In this document: positions 1 through 8,113 of the stretch, piece by piece | Numbering within the stretch: position 1 is the stretch's first letter | Layout of the letters: each line of letters begins with the position of its first letter | From: Pseudaestuariivita sp. | GTDB lineage: Bacteria > Pseudomonadota > Alphaproteobacteria > Rhodobacterales > Rhodobacteraceae | NCBI GenBank assembly: GCA_020629995.1 | Contig: JAHDCH010000076.1 | Coordinates: 1-10,853, forward strand | DNA: 10,853 nt | Direction: 5' to 3' | The notes under the pieces: model-generated | The model's input: only the letters and a program-made list of their open reading frames with translations | Told to the model about the DNA's origin: nothing | The model's database searches: none | Program-made: the position numbers and the translations under genes

Positions 1-373
1 CCGCGTCGCAGACGCTGATCAGGCCCAGCCCGCCCGCGATGGCGTGGCCGTGCACCCGCGCGATCAGCGGCTTGGGCATCTCGTTCAGCGCTTTCAGCAT
101 CCGCCCCAGCTTGGCGCTTTCCCTGGCGCGGGCGGCGGCGTCCATGCCGAACTGCTGCCGCATCCAGCCAAGGTCCGCGCCCGCGGAAAACGACCGCCCC
201 CGCCCCGCCAGAACCACGACGCGCACGGCTTCGTCCGCACCCAGCTCTTCGGCGGCGCGCACCAGCTCGGCCAGCATCGTGGCTGACATGGCGTTGTGCG
301 TGTCCGGCCGGTTCAGCCACAGCGTCGCGACGCCCCTTGCGTCGCGCTCTATCTCCAGCGTGTCATAGCTCAT
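1..373 (-). CDS. liuC: Methylglutaconyl-CoA hydratase (enoyl-CoA hydratase family), 5' part, runs off the window
   Basis: Crotonase-fold hydratase; the likely reaction is hydration of 3-methylglutaconyl-CoA to HMG-CoA, the step between methylcrotonyl-CoA carboxylase and HMG-CoA lyase, both encoded just upstream. About 124 N-terminal residues are present, beginning MSYDTLEIERDARG. Visible family signatures are LNRPDTHNAMS near residue 20-30, the CoA/oxyanion segment GRGRSFSAGADLGWMRQQ, and GHAIAGGLGLISVCDA at the window edge. SAGADLxWM is characteristic of the methylglutaconyl-CoA hydratase branch. The second half, with the catalytic acidic residues, lies beyond position 1, so activity cannot be judged. 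The ATG at 371-373 lies inside the end of the upstream gene, an 11-base overlap (363-373), which suggests translational coupling. Family assignment is firm; the exact substrate rests on operon context. A generic enoyl-CoA hydratase is the alternative. Confidence 0.9.
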   Translation of the reverse strand, partial: MSYDTLEIERDARGVATLWLNRPDTHNAMSATMLAELVRAAEELGADEAVRVVVLAGRGRSFSAGADLGWMRQQFGMDAAARARESAKLGRMLKALNEMPKPLIARVHGHAIAGGLGLISVCDA

Positions 374-878
374 CGTCCCGTACCCCCGGCACCTCGCGCC
401 CGCTTCGGCGCCAATCCTCGAAAACCCAGACCATCCGGTCCACGAACCACACCTTGGGCAGCGCGGTCAGCACCATGCCGAACACCGCGCCCTCCCACCA
501 CAGCGCCCACAGGCCCCAGACCATCAGCGCCGCACCCGGCAGGCTGGCCAGCGTCAGCGCGTGGCCCGCGCGCACGTGATGCGCGGCGATGTCCTTCCTG
601 TGCTCCAGAAAGATCCTCTCGCCCAGCACGCCCTTCGACATCCAGCCCGAGAACCTCTCGGGCTCGGCAAAGGCGCGCGGGTTCAGCCAGATCCAGCCCA
701 GCGCCAGCGCCACCGGGATCGCCGCCCACCAGCCCAGCCAGACCCGGCTCCAGATCGCGAGGCACAAGGCCGGCAGCGCGGTCAGCATCCGGGTCCAGCC
801 CGACCACGGGTTTGCGTGCCTGCGCCAGGCCGTGTCGTCCATCGCCATCAGCCGCTCGGCTGCCCTGAACACGTCCAT
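363..878 (-). CDS. Four-helix membrane protein, DUF6653-like
   Basis: A 171-residue integral membrane protein of unknown function. Hydrophobic segments lie at about residues 31-45, 49-66, 104-125 and 128-146. Conserved-looking landmarks are HANPWSGWTR (21-30), WLNPRAF (64-70), the segment KGVLGERIFL (82-91) and a Trp-rich loop with FEDWRR near the C terminus. From memory this pattern resembles the DUF6653 family; I could not run a profile search. I chose the ATG at 876-878 over an in-frame ATG at 951-953 for two reasons: a GGAG lies 8 bases upstream of it (887-890), and the longer version would translate the palindromic repeat at 898-924 into its N terminus. It follows liuE after 71 bases and overlaps liuC by 11 bases, so it is probably cotranscribed. 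No enzymatic motif is visible. Confidence 0.8.
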   Translation of the reverse strand: MDVFRAAERLMAMDDTAWRRHANPWSGWTRMLTALPALCLAIWSRVWLGWWAAIPVALALGWIWLNPRAFAEPERFSGWMSKGVLGERIFLEHRKDIAAHHVRAGHALTLASLPGAALMVWGLWALWWEGAVFGMVLTALPKVWFVDRMVWVFEDWRRSGREVPGVRDDEL

Positions 879-897: not shown

Positions 898-924
898 GTA
901 GGATGGGTGCTCGTCACCCATCTG
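898..924. repeat. Palindromic repeat copy 1, intercistronic (liuE / DUF6653-like gene)
   Basis: A 27-base element matching 7294-7320 at 24 of 27 positions in the same orientation. Its core is a perfect 8-base inverted repeat, GATGGGTG (902-909) and CACCCATC (915-922), with a 5-base loop CTCGT. Compared with copy 2, one stem position changes on both sides (A-T here, G-C there), so pairing is conserved while the sequence changes. The stem lies 27 bases past the liuE stop and 23 bases before the next ATG. No T run follows on the minus strand, so it is not a classic intrinsic terminator. A perfect 10-base palindrome, TGCCATGGCA, lies beside it at 935-944, and a related GCCACGGC stretch lies beside copy 2, so the full repeat unit may be longer than 27 bases. 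Confidence 0.85.
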
Positions 925-949: not shown

Positions 950-1807
950 TCATCCCGGGGCGCGCAGGGCCTTTGCCATCTCAGCCGCCCGGGCCACCTG
1001 ATCCGCGTCCAGCCTCGTGTCAACGCCAAGGCGCTCCAGCCGCGCCAGCACGGCCTCGGTGGCCACGTTGCCCTTGGCCCCCGGCGCATAGGGACAGCCG
1101 CCCAGCCCTCCGACCGCCGCATCGAACACGCGCAGCCCGCGCTCCAGCGACACCTCGATCGCCTCCAGCGCGCGCCCGGCCGTGTCGTGGTAATGGCCCG
1201 CCAACCTCTCGGCCGGCACGCGCTCCAGCACCGCGTCCAGCATGGCCGCGATCTCCTGGGGCTCGGCGTGGCCCAGCGTGTCGCCCAGCGACACTTCGTG
1301 ACAGCCCATGTCCAAAAGCCGGCCCGCCACCTCGGCCACCGCCCCCGGCGCCACCTTGCCGTCATACGGGCAGTCGACCACGCAGGACACATACCCCCGC
1401 ACCGGCACGCCCCGGGCCTGCGCGGTCTTGATCACCGGGACAAAGCGGGCAAAGCTTTCTTCTATGCTGGCGTTGATATTGGCCCGGCTGAACCCTTCGG
1501 AGGCCGCGCCAAAGACGGCGACCTCGTCCGCGCCCGCGGCCAGCGCGTCGGTCAGACCGCGCATGTTCGGCGTCAGCGCCACATAGCCTGTGCCCTTCCT
1601 CCGGGTGATCCCTCGCATCACCTCGCCCGAGGCCGCCATCTGCGGCACCCATTTGGGGTTCACGAAACTGGCGCATTCGATCCGGGCGAACCCCGCCCTG
1701 CTCAGGCAATCGACCAGCGCGATCTTGTCCTGTGCCGCGATCACACCCGGCTCGTTCTGCAAACCGTCCCTCGGCCCGACCTCGAAAATCTCGACCCTTT
1801 CGCCCAT
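950..1807 (-). CDS. liuE: Hydroxymethylglutaryl-CoA lyase
   Basis: Cleaves HMG-CoA to acetyl-CoA and acetoacetate, the last step of leucine degradation; a cytosolic, metal-dependent TIM-barrel enzyme of the DRE-TIM family. The 285 residues are near full length for bacterial members. Visible signatures: EVGPRDGLQNE (9-19) with the catalytic Arg-Asp pair at 13-14, FGAASEGFSRAN (99-110), SCVVDCPYDGKV (141-152), SLGDTLG (173-179), metal-binding HYHDTAGRAL (205-214; His205 and His207), and the cysteine loop GGLGGCPYAPGAKGN (233-247) with Cys238. The start at 1805-1807 has a GGAG 7 bases upstream (1815-1818), and only 3 bases separate it from the glutathione S-transferase stop. All catalytic landmarks are intact. 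Confidence in function is very high. Confidence 0.97.
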   Translation of the reverse strand: MGERVEIFEVGPRDGLQNEPGVIAAQDKIALVDCLSRAGFARIECASFVNPKWVPQMAASGEVMRGITRRKGTGYVALTPNMRGLTDALAAGADEVAVFGAASEGFSRANINASIEESFARFVPVIKTAQARGVPVRGYVSCVVDCPYDGKVAPGAVAEVAGRLLDMGCHEVSLGDTLGHAEPQEIAAMLDAVLERVPAERLAGHYHDTAGRALEAIEVSLERGLRVFDAAVGGLGGCPYAPGAKGNVATEAVLARLERLGVDTRLDADQVARAAEMAKALRAPG

Positions 1808-2542: not shown

Positions 2543-4486
2543 TCACGCGCTCTGGTACACCATGCGCACCAGCGGATCGCCCTGCGCCACCTGATCGCCC
2601 GCCCGCGCCAGCACCTCGGCCACCTCTCCGGCCTCTGCCGCGCGAAAGACGTGCTCCATCTTCATCGCCTCCAGCACCGCCAAGGGCGCGCCCGCTTCCA
2701 CGTGGTCGCCCGGCTGGACATGCACCGCCTGCACCAGCCCGGGCATCGGCGCGGCCACCAGCCCGTCCGCCGCTCCGCCTTCGGCTGCCCGCTCCAGCGG
2801 ATCGACCAGCAGGGCCCTGTGCCCGGCCCCTTCGAACACGGTGACCGCCTGCCCGGCCCTGGCAAAGGCCGGCACGGCCCGCCCGCCGCACTGCCACCCG
2901 TTTGCTCCGCGCTCATAGGTCATGCGTGCTCCGCGCAGCTCGGCTGTGATGCTGTCCGGCCCTTCGACCTCCAGCACAACCTGCTCTTCGCTGTCCCCGG
3001 CCAGCGCAAGTGTCACGCTTTTGCGCAGCGGCGCCCACAGGGCAAAGCCCGTTACCGGGCCCGCCCCCGCGTCCAGCCCCGCTGCCACCAGCGCTGCCCA
3101 GCCAAGACCCGCATCGCTCAGCGCGGCCTCGTCCGACAGCGCCCCGAGATCGCGGGCGATCAGCCCGGTGTCCACGTCGCCCTCTGCAAAGCCCTTGTGC
3201 CCCGCCAGCCGCGCCAGAAAGCCGATGTTGGTCACCGTGCCCGCCACCTGCGTCTGTTCCAGCCCCCGTTTCAGCCGGGCCAGCGCTATGTCCCGGGTGG
3301 GCCCGTGCACGACAACCTTGGCGATCATCGGATCGTACCACGGGCTGATCTCGTCACCTGTGCGCACCCCCGTCTCGGCGCGTACGCCTTCGGGAAAGGC
3401 CAGGTGTTCCAGCCGCCCCGTCGCCGGCAAAAAGCCCGCCGCGACATCCTCGGCATACAGACGCGCCTCAAATGCGTGCCCGGTGATGCTCAGCTCGTCC
3501 TGCGTCTTCGGCAGCGGCTCTCCGGCGGCCACGCGCAGCTGCCACTCCACCAGATCCACACCCGTGATCTCTTCGGTCACGGGATGCTCGACCTGCAGGC
3601 GGGTGTTCATCTCCATAAAGTAAAACCGGTCCGGCCTCAGCCCTTCGCTGGCATCCACGATGAACTCGACCGTGCCCGCGCCCCTGTAGCCGATCGCCTC
3701 GGCGGCGCGCACCGCCGCTCCGCCCATGGCCTCGCGCATGTCTTGGGTCATGCCCGGCGCGGGCGCTTCCTCGATCACCTTCTGGTGCCTGCGTTGCAGC
3801 GAACAATCGCGTTCAAACAGATGCACCGCGCTGGTGCCGTCGCCAAAGACCTGCACTTCGATGTGCCTTGGCTTGGCGACGAATTTCTCGACCAGCACAT
3901 CCTCGTTGCCAAAGGCCGCCTTTGCTTCGGCCCTCGCCGCCCTCAGCGCGTCCCTGAACGCGTCCTCGGTCTCGACCAGCCGCATGCCTTTGCCGCCTCC
4001 GCCCGCCACCGCCTTGATCAGCACCGGATAGCCTATGTCCTTCGCGGCCGCGGCCAGAGTCTCGAGGCTCTGATCGTCTCCGTGATAGCCGGGCACGACC
4101 GGCACACCCGCCGCTTCCATCTCGGCCTTGGCCGCGCCTTTCAGGCCCATCTTTCGCATGGCCTGCCCCGAGGGGCCGACAAAGACCAGCCCCGCCGCCT
4201 CGCAGGCCTCGGCAAATTCGGGGTTCTCGCTCAGAAAGCCATATCCGGGATGTACCGCACCGGCGCCGGTGGCCCTTGCCGCTTCGATGATCGCTTCGCC
4301 CCTCAGATAGCTGTCCGCCGGCGCGGCTCCTCCCAGGCTGACCGCTTCGTCGGCCATGGCCACGTGCAATGCGTCCCTGTCGACGTCCGAATGCACCGCC
4401 ACCGTGCCCAGCCCCATGGCCCTTGCCGTTCGGATCACCCTGCAGGCAATCTCTCCCCGGTTGGCTATCAGCACCTTGTCAAACAT
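2543..4486 (-). CDS. liuD: 3-Methylcrotonyl-CoA carboxylase, biotin (alpha) subunit
   Basis: The biotin-carrying half of methylcrotonyl-CoA carboxylase: it carboxylates its own biotin with ATP and bicarbonate and passes CO2 to LiuB. The 647 residues are typical length. Domain order: biotin carboxylase N-terminal domain (IANRGEIACRVIRTA, 7-21; HPGYGFLSEN, 79-88), ATP-grasp with the glycine loop AGGGGKGMR (161-169), HIEVQVFGD (208-216), ERDCSLQRRHQKVIEEAPAP (225-244) and MEMNTRLQVEHPVTE (291-305), then the carboxylase C-terminal domain (HAFEARLYAED, 337-347), a less conserved linker domain, and a biotinyl domain from about 575 with EAMKME at 606-611 and the biotin lysine at 609. The start has AAGGA 7 bases upstream (4494-4498) and overlaps the preceding gene by 8 bases. 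The EHPVTE/acyl-CoA pattern alone would also fit geranyl- or propionyl-CoA carboxylase; liuA, liuB and liuE nearby favour methylcrotonyl-CoA. Confidence 0.96.
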   Translation of the reverse strand: MFDKVLIANRGEIACRVIRTARAMGLGTVAVHSDVDRDALHVAMADEAVSLGGAAPADSYLRGEAIIEAARATGAGAVHPGYGFLSENPEFAEACEAAGLVFVGPSGQAMRKMGLKGAAKAEMEAAGVPVVPGYHGDDQSLETLAAAAKDIGYPVLIKAVAGGGGKGMRLVETEDAFRDALRAARAEAKAAFGNEDVLVEKFVAKPRHIEVQVFGDGTSAVHLFERDCSLQRRHQKVIEEAPAPGMTQDMREAMGGAAVRAAEAIGYRGAGTVEFIVDASEGLRPDRFYFMEMNTRLQVEHPVTEEITGVDLVEWQLRVAAGEPLPKTQDELSITGHAFEARLYAEDVAAGFLPATGRLEHLAFPEGVRAETGVRTGDEISPWYDPMIAKVVVHGPTRDIALARLKRGLEQTQVAGTVTNIGFLARLAGHKGFAEGDVDTGLIARDLGALSDEAALSDAGLGWAALVAAGLDAGAGPVTGFALWAPLRKSVTLALAGDSEEQVVLEVEGPDSITAELRGARMTYERGANGWQCGGRAVPAFARAGQAVTVFEGAGHRALLVDPLERAAEGGAADGLVAAPMPGLVQAVHVQPGDHVEAGAPLAVLEAMKMEHVFRAAEAGEVAEVLARAGDQVAQGDPLVRMVYQSA

Positions 4487-5267
4487 CGCTTTGTCCTTTT
4501 GCTGCTGCCGCGCCGCCTTGCTGCCGGTCCGGCCCGTCCTGTGGCGGCAGCTCGAATTCGAAAGTGTCCATGCTGATCACCGTGGCATTATGCACGTCGC
4601 CCGCCTGCCTCAGCCGCTCTGCCGATTCGCTGTCCGTGGCCGCTTTCCGGATCTTTCTGACGCTGCCCAGACCGGTCCTGACCAGCTGGTGCAGCGCGCA
4701 TCCCAGGATCACGGCCAGCAGTGTGCAGCCTACGGGGATCCACCCCTCGGCCAGCCCAAGCGCGCCTGCAAGAATGAACCCCAGAATGCCCAGATCCATG
4801 GTGATCAGCACGAACCACACCGCGGTTATGCCGTACGGCAACCACAGCGACGAATAAAAGCCCGGGATATGCGTGACGCTCTCTCCGATCAGCTTCCAGA
4901 CCTGCAGCTTCTGTCTCCGGATCTCTTGTTCGTTGGCCACGACAAAGGTGTTGTACTTTCTCGTGACCGCCCGGATCGCCAGATGCGCTGCGTGAATACT
5001 CGGTATCGCGACCATCCCGCACGCTGCGCCCAACACGCCCAGCGCTATGCCGACGCCGCACAGAACCGGCGCCAGCAAGGTTGCCTCTTCGGCAAAGCCC
5101 TTGGGCCAGGCAATCCAGGTTGCTCCATAGGCCGCAAACAGAAACCCCGACACAGTGATCGCCCATTTCAGGCGACGGTCCACCAGGTCGTCTTCGTGCA
5201 TCACGTTCCTGCGGCCCTGCTCGTACCGCGTCTCTATCCTGCACTCCAGCGTCCCCATCTCAGCCAT
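4479..5267 (-). CDS. Four-helix membrane protein of unknown function
   Basis: A 262-residue membrane protein that I do not recognise. Hydrophobic segments lie at about 34-54, 64-88, 143-172 and 177-196, arranged as two hairpins separated by a charged loop (about 98-130, RAVTRKYNTFVVANEQEIRR). The hydrophilic C-terminal tail (200-262) is charged and Gln/Ala-rich. The start chosen (5265-5267) has GGAGG 7 bases upstream and overlaps the previous gene by 8 bases. An internal ATG at 5199-5201 (MHEDDLVDRR) is the main alternative and would give 240 residues. The stop lies inside liuD (8-base overlap), so translation of the biotin subunit is probably coupled to this gene. By eye GC content in the middle of the gene is about 52-55%, well below its neighbours, which suggests separate ancestry. 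No catalytic motif is visible. Confidence 0.82.
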   Translation of the reverse strand: MAEMGTLECRIETRYEQGRRNVMHEDDLVDRRLKWAITVSGFLFAAYGATWIAWPKGFAEEATLLAPVLCGVGIALGVLGAACGMVAIPSIHAAHLAIRAVTRKYNTFVVANEQEIRRQKLQVWKLIGESVTHIPGFYSSLWLPYGITAVWFVLITMDLGILGFILAGALGLAEGWIPVGCTLLAVILGCALHQLVRTGLGSVRKIRKAATDSESAERLRQAGDVHNATVISMDTFEFELPPQDGPDRQQGGAAAAKGQSDV

Positions 5268-5973
5268 CCTCGCGCCTCCACACCGGCACGGATGCCCCGT
5301 CTTCCAGATGCTCGGCCACGTGCTCGGGCAACGGCCAGTCGCCAAAGGTGATCTCGTCCGGGTCTCCCGGGCCGCCCTTCCGGATCGCCTGCAATTGCAG
5401 CTCCGGGTGCAGCGCCACGCTTATCCGGGTCAGCGCCTGATCCACTCGGCCCTTCAAACCCTCAATCCGCGCCTCCAGCTTCTCGGTCTCGCTCGCCTTG
5501 CTCCACAATCTGGGCATCCGGATCTCGGGCAGAACGGCCCGGCCCGCCAGCAGCGCCAGCGCCATGACCATCATGCCCACCGCGCCCAGCGCCGCTCCGC
5601 CCAGCAGCGCCACGTCCGGCACCCAGCCCAGCCAGCCCCAGCGCTGGCCCTTGGCCTCCTGCTCGGCCCTCAGCGCCAGGCGCATCTCGTCAAACGCCTC
5701 GGCAAAGCTCTTGCGGAAATGCCCGGCAAACAGATCGCGATCAAAATCGTCCCGTCCCGCAAACAGCTTGAGCGCCGGCCTCACAAAAGCGCCCTTCCGT
5801 GATGCCGCCACAAACGCTTCGAAATCGAAGACAAAGAAATAATCCTCGGCCCCTCGCCCCTTGTGCACCAGATACACCGGCACCTCCGCCCGGGGCAGCA
5901 CATCCGGCATCTCCGGCATCCCCGGCACCTTCTGCCACAGCCATGCCGCGCTTTGTGAGATCGCATCCCGCAT
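5260..5973 (-). CDS. Membrane protein with soluble N-terminal region and C-terminal helix, unknown function
   Basis: A 237-residue protein that I do not recognise. Residues 1-110 look soluble and mixed alpha/beta (VPVYLVHKGR, DYFFVFDFEAFVAASRK, then a charged helix about 76-108). One long or two short membrane segments lie at about 115-148. A heptad-like helix follows at about 160-185 (ETEKLEARIEGLKGRVDQAL), which could be a short coiled coil, then a proline- and acid-rich tail. The ATG at 5971-5973 shares one base with the nuclease stop (TGATG). The longer in-frame version starting near 6180 would overlap the nuclease throughout and has a low-complexity Arg/Gly-rich start, so it was not chosen. 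It overlaps the next gene by 8 bases. Its consistent placement suggests it works with that neighbour, but this is inference. Confidence 0.8.
   Translation of the reverse strand: MRDAISQSAAWLWQKVPGMPEMPDVLPRAEVPVYLVHKGRGAEDYFFVFDFEAFVAASRKGAFVRPALKLFAGRDDFDRDLFAGHFRKSFAEAFDEMRLALRAEQEAKGQRWGWLGWVPDVALLGGAALGAVGMMVMALALLAGRAVLPEIRMPRLWSKASETEKLEARIEGLKGRVDQALTRISVALHPELQLQAIRKGGPGDPDEITFGDWPLPEHVAEHLEDGASVPVWRREDG
5275..5279 (-). promoter_or_regulatory. Ribosome binding site deciding the start of the 262-residue membrane protein
   Basis: GGAGG on the minus strand, 7 bases before the ATG at 5265-5267. It lies inside the last codons of the preceding gene and supports the overlapping start over the internal ATG at 5199-5201. 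Confidence 0.55.
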
Positions 5974-6515: not shown

Positions 6516-8113
6516 ATGCGGAACACGCCAAAACGTGTCTCCTTCAGGGGCGCGTTCAGCGCCGCACCCAGGCTCAGGCTCAGCACCTCGCGGCTGCGGC
6601 GCGGATCGATGATCCCGTCGTCCCACAGCCTCGCGCTGGCGTACAGAGGATGCGACTGCTCCTCGAACATCTCGATCGTGGGCCTTTTAAAGGCCTCTTC
6701 CTCCTCCGCGCTCCACGTGCCGCCCATGCGCTCGATCCCGTCCCTTTTGACCGTGGCCAGCACGCCCGCGGCCTGCGCTCCGCCCATGACGCTGATCCTG
6801 CTGTTCGGCCAGGTCCACAGGAACCTCGGATCATAGGCGCGCCCGGCCATCCCGTAATTGCCCGCCCCGAACGAGCCTCCCACCAGCATGGTGATCTTGG
6901 GCACTTCGGTGCTGGCCACCGCCGTCACCATCTTGGCCCCGTGTCTCGCTATGCCTTCGTTCTCGTACCTCTGGCCCACCATGAACCCGGTGATGTTCTG
7001 CAAGAACACCAGCGGGATTTTCCTTTGCGAACACAGCTCGATGAAATGTGCGCCCTTCTGCGCGGCTTCGCTGAACAGCACCCCGTTGTTGGCGATGATG
7101 CCCACCGGCCAGCCATCCACATGGGCAAACCCGGTGACAAGCGTTTCTCCAAACCTCGCCTTGAACTCGTCAAAGCGCGAGCCATCCACGATCCTCGCAA
7201 TCACTTCGCGGATGTCATAGGGCGTGCGCAGGTCCGCCGGCACCACGCCCAGGATCTCCTCGGGATCATAGGCGGGGGGCTCGGCTGCCTGGCGTAGGGT
7301 GGGTGCTCGCCACCCACCTGTGCTTGCCACGGCCTGCCGCGCCAGCGCCAGCGCATGCGCGTCGTCCTCGGCCAGATAATCGGCCACCCCGGACAGGCGC
7401 GTGTGCACGTCACCCCCGCCCAGATCCTCTGCGCTCACCACCTCTCCCGTCGCCGCTTTCACCAGCGGCGGTCCGGCCAGAAAGATCGTGCCCTGTTCCT
7501 TGACGATGATCGTCACGTCGCTCATCGCGGGCACATAGGCGCCCCCGGCTGTGCAGGATCCCATCACCACCGCGATCTGCGCCATCCCCTTCGCGCTCAT
7601 CCGCGCCTGATTATAGAAAATCCGGCCAAAGTGCTCGCGATCCGGGAACACCTCGTCCTGATTGGGCAGGTTCGCGCCTCCGCTGTCCACCAGATAGACG
7701 CAGGGCAAATGGCACTCTTCCGCGATGGCCTGTGCGCGCAGGTGCTTTTTGACGGTCATCGGGTAATAGGTGCCGCCCTTCACCGTGGCGTCGTTGCACA
7801 CCACCATGACGTCCCGCCCCTCGACGCGGCCGATCCCCGCGATCACGCCCGCCGCAGGGGCTGCGCCTTCGTACATCCCGTGCGCCGCCGTCGCCCCGAC
7901 CTCAAGAAAGGGCGACCCGGCGTCCAGCAGGTTCGCAACCCTGTCTCTGGGCAGCATCTTGCCCCGGTCCACATGCCTTTCCCTCGACCTCGCGCCTCCG
8001 CCTTCCGCCGCCTGCTCGGCCGCCTTGCGCACCTCCGCCAGCGCCTCCAGATGCGCCTTGCGGTTTGCTTCAAAGACCTCGCCCCCCGGGCGCAATTGCG
8101 AGTTCAGTTTCAT
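6512..8113 (-). CDS. liuB: 3-Methylcrotonyl-CoA carboxylase, carboxyltransferase (beta) subunit
   Basis: Transfers CO2 from carboxybiotin on LiuD to 3-methylcrotonyl-CoA, giving 3-methylglutaconyl-CoA. The 533 residues are full length with two crotonase-like halves. N-terminal half: [20 protein letters not shown] (44-63), [20 protein letters not shown] (80-99), [20 protein letters not shown] (107-126), [17 protein letters not shown] (142-158), [14 protein letters not shown] (186-199). C-terminal half: [20 protein letters not shown] (321-340), NITGFMVGQ (373-381), [19 protein letters not shown] (413-431), [19 protein letters not shown] (493-511) and the typical end FGVFRM. Start and stop are both 4-base overlaps with neighbours. 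The oddity is residues 265-274 in the linker between the two halves, which are encoded by a palindromic repeat also found between genes at 898-924. Elsewhere the reading frame and motifs are intact, so the enzyme should be functional. Confidence 0.97.
7294..7320. repeat. Palindromic repeat copy 2, in frame inside liuB
   Basis: A 27-base element matching 898-924 at 24 of 27 positions, same orientation. The core is a perfect 8-base inverted repeat, GGTGGGTG (7298-7305) and CACCCACC (7311-7318), with loop CTCGC. It is translated in frame as [10 protein letters not shown] (LiuB residues 265-274), in the surface linker between the two carboxyltransferase halves, where this family normally varies in sequence. 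The paired change relative to copy 1 (G-C here, A-T there) shows the stem has been kept. Confidence 0.85.

Follow-up and report, generated by a model that had tools for sequence, protein, structure and literature searches.

Among described systems, the GTAG REPs of Di Nocera et al. (2013; PMC3733652) are the closest to the repeat analysed here. According to that source, a RAYT gene is common with GTAG REPs but is reported missing in some species, and different REPs are found at about the same site in recB of X. campestris and X. oryzae. RAYTs process REPs as single strands, and the GTAG matters in this reaction (PMC8266576). The S. maltophilia REP, for example, is an 8-bp perfect palindrome with a 3-nt loop and is cleaved by its group 3 TnpAREP (PMC8266576). 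A further comparison is offered by the palindromic elements of Rickettsia (RPEs), for which a size of 105-146 bp is given (PMC2229807); those of R. conorii are CGTC-tagged (PMC3733652).

The window is a stretch of 10,853 nucleotides from Pseudaestuariivita sp. (genome G000; G and L numbers designate genomes and loci). The initial annotation had noted that a 27-base element occurs twice in it, once inside liuB and once between liuE and the next gene (Table 1). A search with the pattern GTAGGRTGGGTGCTCGYCACCCAYCTG confirms this, with two matches in the window, both on the plus strand, compared with a mean of 0.00 in 200 dinucleotide shuffles. The two 27-mers are identical at 24/27 positions. Their alignment bears out an 8-base stem common to both copies in which the difference is compensated on both sides: it consists of one stem pair (G-C versus A-T), the remaining change being one loop base. 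A hairpin is predicted for both copies as single-stranded DNA (z about -2.2 and -3.9). The liuB copy does lie in frame in a variable linker, to which it contributes nine amino acids, and in the predicted structure (mean pLDDT 81.6, 55-row alignment) the LiuB residues that it encodes form a coil between helices 251-264 and 284-290. A small SNase-fold gene (PF00565; 5973-6518, minus strand) is also located among the leucine-degradation genes of the window. Near this gene, the minus-strand frames 4479-5261 and 5260-5964 specify proteins without a Pfam match.

Table 1. Features of the window: the two repeat copies, the host gene and the neighbouring genes
Feature	Position	Strand	Remarks
REP copy in liuB	7294..7320	+	Minus-strand reading (T)GGWRAPTLR
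GTAG foot, liuB copy	7294..7297	+	Unpaired tetranucleotide defining GTAG REPs (foot definition: PMC3733652); part of L-R (CTA CG) in liuB
5' stem arm GGTGGGTG, liuB copy	7298..7305	+	
Loop CTCGC, liuB copy	7306..7310	+	
3' stem arm CACCCACC, liuB copy	7311..7318	+	
Intergenic REP copy	898..924	+	GTAG 898-901; stem arms 902-909 and 915-922; loop 910-914
liuB, methylcrotonyl-CoA carboxylase beta subunit, 533 aa	6512..8113	-	PF01039 Carboxyl_trans, E 3.3e-151; 3u9r, E 8.5e-240
liuE-like HMG-CoA lyase gene (HMGL-like), beside intergenic copy	950..1807	-	PF00682
DUF6653 gene, other flank of intergenic copy	363..878	-	PF20358

Judged by its anatomy and copy number, the element belongs to the GTAG-type REPs, of which the window's genome (2.83 Mb, 378 contigs, 70% complete) has about 100. 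The pattern GTAGGRTGGGTGN{1,20}CACCCAY gives 103 matches (58 forward and 45 reverse, perfect palindromes being counted on both strands), while the same pattern read backwards gives 0. The mobile-repeat reading of the initial annotation called for more copies than chance predicts, and this is what the genome holds. The repeated unit comprises GTAG, a stem of 8-9 bp and a loop of 2-5 bases; no long common flank outside the unit was found across the 30 loci compared. The 100 listed matches include 17 tail-to-tail (TT) pairs, with GTAG inside and 8-28 bases apart, one head-to-head (HH) pair, seven perfect palindromes and 50 singles. The unpaired GTAG foot, high dispersed copy number, opposite-facing pairs and mainly extragenic location expected of GTAG REPs are thus all present. 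At L001:1531-1554, a variant REP (GTAGGGTGCGTGCTTGCACGCATC) stands next to a typical one and represents a second subfamily in this genome.

To describe placement, coding potential was scored on both sides of each element, using a codon model trained on five genes of the window. The liuB copy is one of very few REPs inside genes. In the window's genome only two of the 101 contexts, taken from loci covering the 100 listed of the 103 matches, score clearly as coding to the left and to the right of the repeat, namely that in liuB and one in a cytidylyltransferase gene (CTP_transf_1, E 1.4e-52). The corresponding figures are 1/34 in G178, where liuB alone scores as intragenic, and 2/23 in G158 (liuB and a Hydantoinase_A gene, E 1.4e-73). 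None was found in the 16 contexts of the G021 stretches or the six of the G001 stretches, liuB lying outside both sets. The second in-frame REP of the window's genome, at L185:1538-1560 (contig C290), has the opposite orientation and is translated as VGWVFTPIA; its host gene is CDP-diglyceride synthase-like (CTP_transf_1). The REP in the Hydantoinase_A gene (L343, G158:C8:488550-490750) is also in frame, in a frame that differs from that of the liuB copy.

The corresponding linkers were fetched from 130 of the 154 family genomes with a LiuB match (30 + 100), and 116 of these were parsed by a foot-requiring scan. A generic hairpin scan of linkers (110 loci, L039 and L079 being without a reading frame) gave too much noise to be used alone, and scans of this kind took its place. 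The end of the linker was trimmed in the 116-linker scan because the conserved PAYDP codons had given false matches (for example, in G168) in an earlier foot scan. A REP-like hairpin is present in 11 of the 116 linkers, with at least four stem types. When the linkers were codon-shuffled, a hairpin occurred in 50/2320, so that about 2.5 in 116 would be expected by chance. The other 14 fetched linkers, read by other means (13 by re-scan and G184 by the earlier foot scan), have no hairpin. The initial annotation had regarded coding insertion in a Rhodobacteraceae catabolic enzyme as unusual; the finding of such hairpins in the same linker of 11 parsed family members does not support a one-off. 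Its mobile-repeat reading also required that the linker not be conserved in distant LiuB proteins, and it is not. LiuB linkers are highly variable, with LNRxKPxTVxW or a near version of it (N type) in most outgroup rows and in many Rhodobacteraceae. The LiuB of the congener G001 (L124), with the linker masked, is identical to P0012 of Pseudaestuariivita atlantica, and the linker is the same too.

The hairpin of the liuB linker reads GGCGGGGTGAACCCCGCC-CTAC in G004, G021, G132 and G197, GGCGGGGTAAACCCCGCC-CTAC in G106, GGCGGGACAAGTCCCGCC-CTAC in G178, GCCGGGCTGAAGCCCGGC-CTAC in G068, GGTGCGCTGAAGCACACC-CTAC (with one mismatch) in G158 and GGTGGGTTTCACCCACC-CTAC in G012. Further linker hairpins were seen at L037 and L053 in the generic scan. 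The 10 hosts with an exact GTAG foot (CTAC in liuB) carry ten different genus codes and share one orientation and one reading frame, and the lengths of both the left and the right junction differ between them. Since a search for the foot on the coding strand only would have forced one orientation, the scan was repeated on the opposite strand. This gave 10 loose matches. Just one of them has an exact foot and corresponds to the second half of a dimer in G012. Six represent the known hairpins again, next to feet that arose by chance (CCGC, CCAC), and the last three are further loose matches. The G012 gene (L273, G012:C10:84193-84543) contains a complete, translated, in-frame TT REP dimer with an 11-base spacer, and its linker exceeds the usual N type by about 12 residues.

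Further copies of the stem type found in liuB are held by 10 of the 11 genomes with a hairpin in this gene. We counted three stem types (A, B and C) in 198 family genomes and called those with 10 or more matches REP-rich. A liuB hairpin occurs in 9/32 REP-rich and in 2/84 other parsed genomes (Fisher p 1.3e-4, uncorrected for kinship); 23 of the 32 therefore have a liuB without an intact hairpin. With the other 14 linkers added by hand, the proportions are 9/35 and 2/95 (p not recomputed). The two exceptions that are not REP-rich are G158, which has its own fourth type (21 matches including liuB), and G167. All of the 11 hairpin linkers other than that of G167 have an exact CTAC foot and a matching family in the genome. 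The G167 hairpin, with a CTGC foot, one type-C match elsewhere and no clear family, may be a chance product.

In eight of the nine rich hosts the stem type in liuB is the commonest of the three in the genome, and in G012 it is the second commonest. Because most hosts are of type C, permutation gives this agreement a chance of 1 in 36 (hand calculation), and the nearly private variants are stronger evidence. The G178 liuB 22-mer is present in 20 copies in G178, 8 in G012, 3 in G074 and 0 in the other 195 of the 198 genomes. The G158 stem type occurs 21 times in G158, up to five times in each of five other genomes and not at all in the other 192. In both G178 and G158, the liuB hairpin matches, down to the loop, the repeats dispersed through the same genome. 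For the pattern GTAGGNYGNG...CNCRNC, the reversed control exceeded the real matches in most of 16 genomes; the places that it listed were used and its counts were not. REPs are also found in tandem at regular spacing in G168:C3:11361-11887 (about 166-173 bases) and G090:C2:82946-83170 (67-68 bases), suggesting array expansion.

In a LiuB tree calculated with the linker masked, REP-bearing proteins are placed beside N-type relatives (G004 with L034 at 100/98 and L053 with L149 at 99/94), and G068 falls within a Ruegeria clade that has both linker types. A single clade of six REP-bearing rows, these being the rows whose DNA had been inspected and having been picked after a first tree, is rejected (p-AU 1.6e-5), suggesting that the repeat was gained more than once. 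The three outgroup rows of the tree used in this test are of N type. The first tree gave 26 linker changes, based on a protein signature that does not separate intact from decayed copies and with a few labels misparsed (for example, P0115 and L045); the argument for gain is based on the AU test and not on this count.

Between liuB of G068 and that of R. arenilitoris, identity in 60-base windows is mostly 75-93%. It falls to 47% in the linker, whose length differs by one codon. The same local drop is seen in the pairs G004/L034 and L053/L149. This drop, together with the near-constant linker length, implies that sequence was replaced in the compared pairs and not simply added, the G012 dimer being an exception. 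The earlier proposal of a small element inserting at tolerated places in genes thus holds in part: the hairpin is dispersed and lies in frame, but simple addition does not agree with a linker that is about as long as in hairpin-free relatives (G012 excepted). No same-species empty site, target duplication or direct insertion event was seen.

The Y1 transposase domain typical of RAYTs (PF01797) was not found in the window's genome (70% complete), in the congener G001 (99%) or in eight other hosts (G004, G012, G021, G068, G106, G132, G178 and G197). The test covered 36 of the 50 genomes with at least 10 matches; G158 and the hosts of L037 and L053 lie outside this set. Y1 was detected in 4/36 of these REP-rich genomes compared with 3/37 in a plain family sample (G000-G036). 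The 32 REP-rich genomes in which it was not found include nine of the ten exact-foot hosts. As the association with RAYT is not universal for GTAG REPs, membership of this class stands although no Y1 was found. Either a RAYT acted and was then lost, or another enzyme copies these repeats.

We consider it probable that the element is a GTAG-type REP and that REPs have repeatedly docked in the inter-domain linker of LiuB, which resident REP copies have entered in several lineages, in one orientation and frame, mostly replacing LNRxKPxTVxW at near-same length. As far as the sequences indicate, the same spot in liuB has apparently been filled several times independently by the relatives' own versions of the repeat. 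Although the hosts tested yielded no RAYT, the REP hairpin could have been copied into the linker as single-stranded DNA, which is the known RAYT mode. Selection would then retain only those events that keep the frame open, hardly alter the length of the linker and place a leucine close to where the valine used to be, and the linker copies would later decay or be overwritten by newer REPs. The common frame may itself result from selection, with the REP-encoded P-x-L-R roughly at the former P-x-T-V-x-W place. It seems unlikely that the linker is a true hot spot, where something other than a RAYT mobilises resident hairpins and swaps one for another in a constant register, leaving the GTAG foot in place.

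A doubtful alternative is that a REP entered an ancestral liuB only once, long ago, and has since been kept in step with the REPs of each genome through gene conversion or palindrome repair. This would fit the orientation and frame shared by the 10 exact-foot copies, the stem types A, B and C, which differ by single compensated pairs, and the many other Roseobacter-group linkers that resemble decayed REPs by eye. Set against this are the rejection of a single REP-bearing clade, the position of several REP rows beside N-type relatives, the N-type outgroup rows and the varying junctions. The spread of REP-linker LiuB alleles between genera by horizontal transfer is quite improbable. Both linker types do coexist in the Ruegeria clade, but in the one pair compared there identity falls sharply only at the linker, and a nearly private REP variant points to a local origin. 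We attach very little probability to a DNA or RNA structure with a function in liuB (for example, one causing translation pausing) that came about by compensatory change and is merely REP-like: most LiuBs are without a hairpin, the window has no Rfam match and in two genomes the hairpin equals the dispersed repeats, even though the stems are perfect and the changes between species are compensated. The kinship with RPEs suggested in the initial annotation can practically be dismissed. The element is indeed a palindromic repeat in frame inside a gene, but it measures about 27 bp, has a GTAG foot in place of the CGTC tag, forms TT pairs and is mostly intergenic.

If recurrent docking in the linker is the correct reading, an orthologous site filled by the genomes' own REPs, beside close relatives with the old linker, is a natural record of how REPs arrived and allows full and empty sites to be compared; mostly non-coding repeats become enzyme sequence there in one fixed frame. 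Were the linker a true hot spot, hairpin DNA resident in the genome would in effect rewrite a protein linker again and again. The apparent absence of RAYT from 32 of the 36 REP-rich Rhodobacteraceae tested makes what copies these repeats directly testable.

Among the matches listed in literature searches on Rhodobacteraceae/Roseobacter REPs, methylcrotonyl-CoA carboxylase palindromes, intragenic REPs and coding palindromes (covering few subscription journals, and with the supplementary intragenic list of PMC3733652 outside their scope), there was no report of the liuB REP site; Rhodobacter, Ruegeria and Roseobacter are absent from the main text of PMC3733652. Compared with known systems, the window REP resembles the Rickettsia palindromic elements (PMC2229807) in being an in-frame repeat within a conserved enzyme, whereas those elements are much longer and have another sequence and tag. 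Its GTAG and 8-bp perfect stem are similar to those of the S. maltophilia REP (PMC8266576); unlike the RAYT/REPtron systems described there, it was found with no detectable Y1_Tnp gene in its own genome, in the congener or in the other hosts tested. The GTAG REPs of PMC3733652 are like it in their foot, stems mostly of 6-9 bp, short loops, TT and HH pairs and mostly intergenic placement with occasional in-frame intragenic units. It differs from them, as far as they are described in that source, in that no RAYT was found in the nine tested exact-foot hosts, and in that one linker of one gene is the common site in 10 exact-foot hosts with ten genus codes, always in one frame and one orientation.
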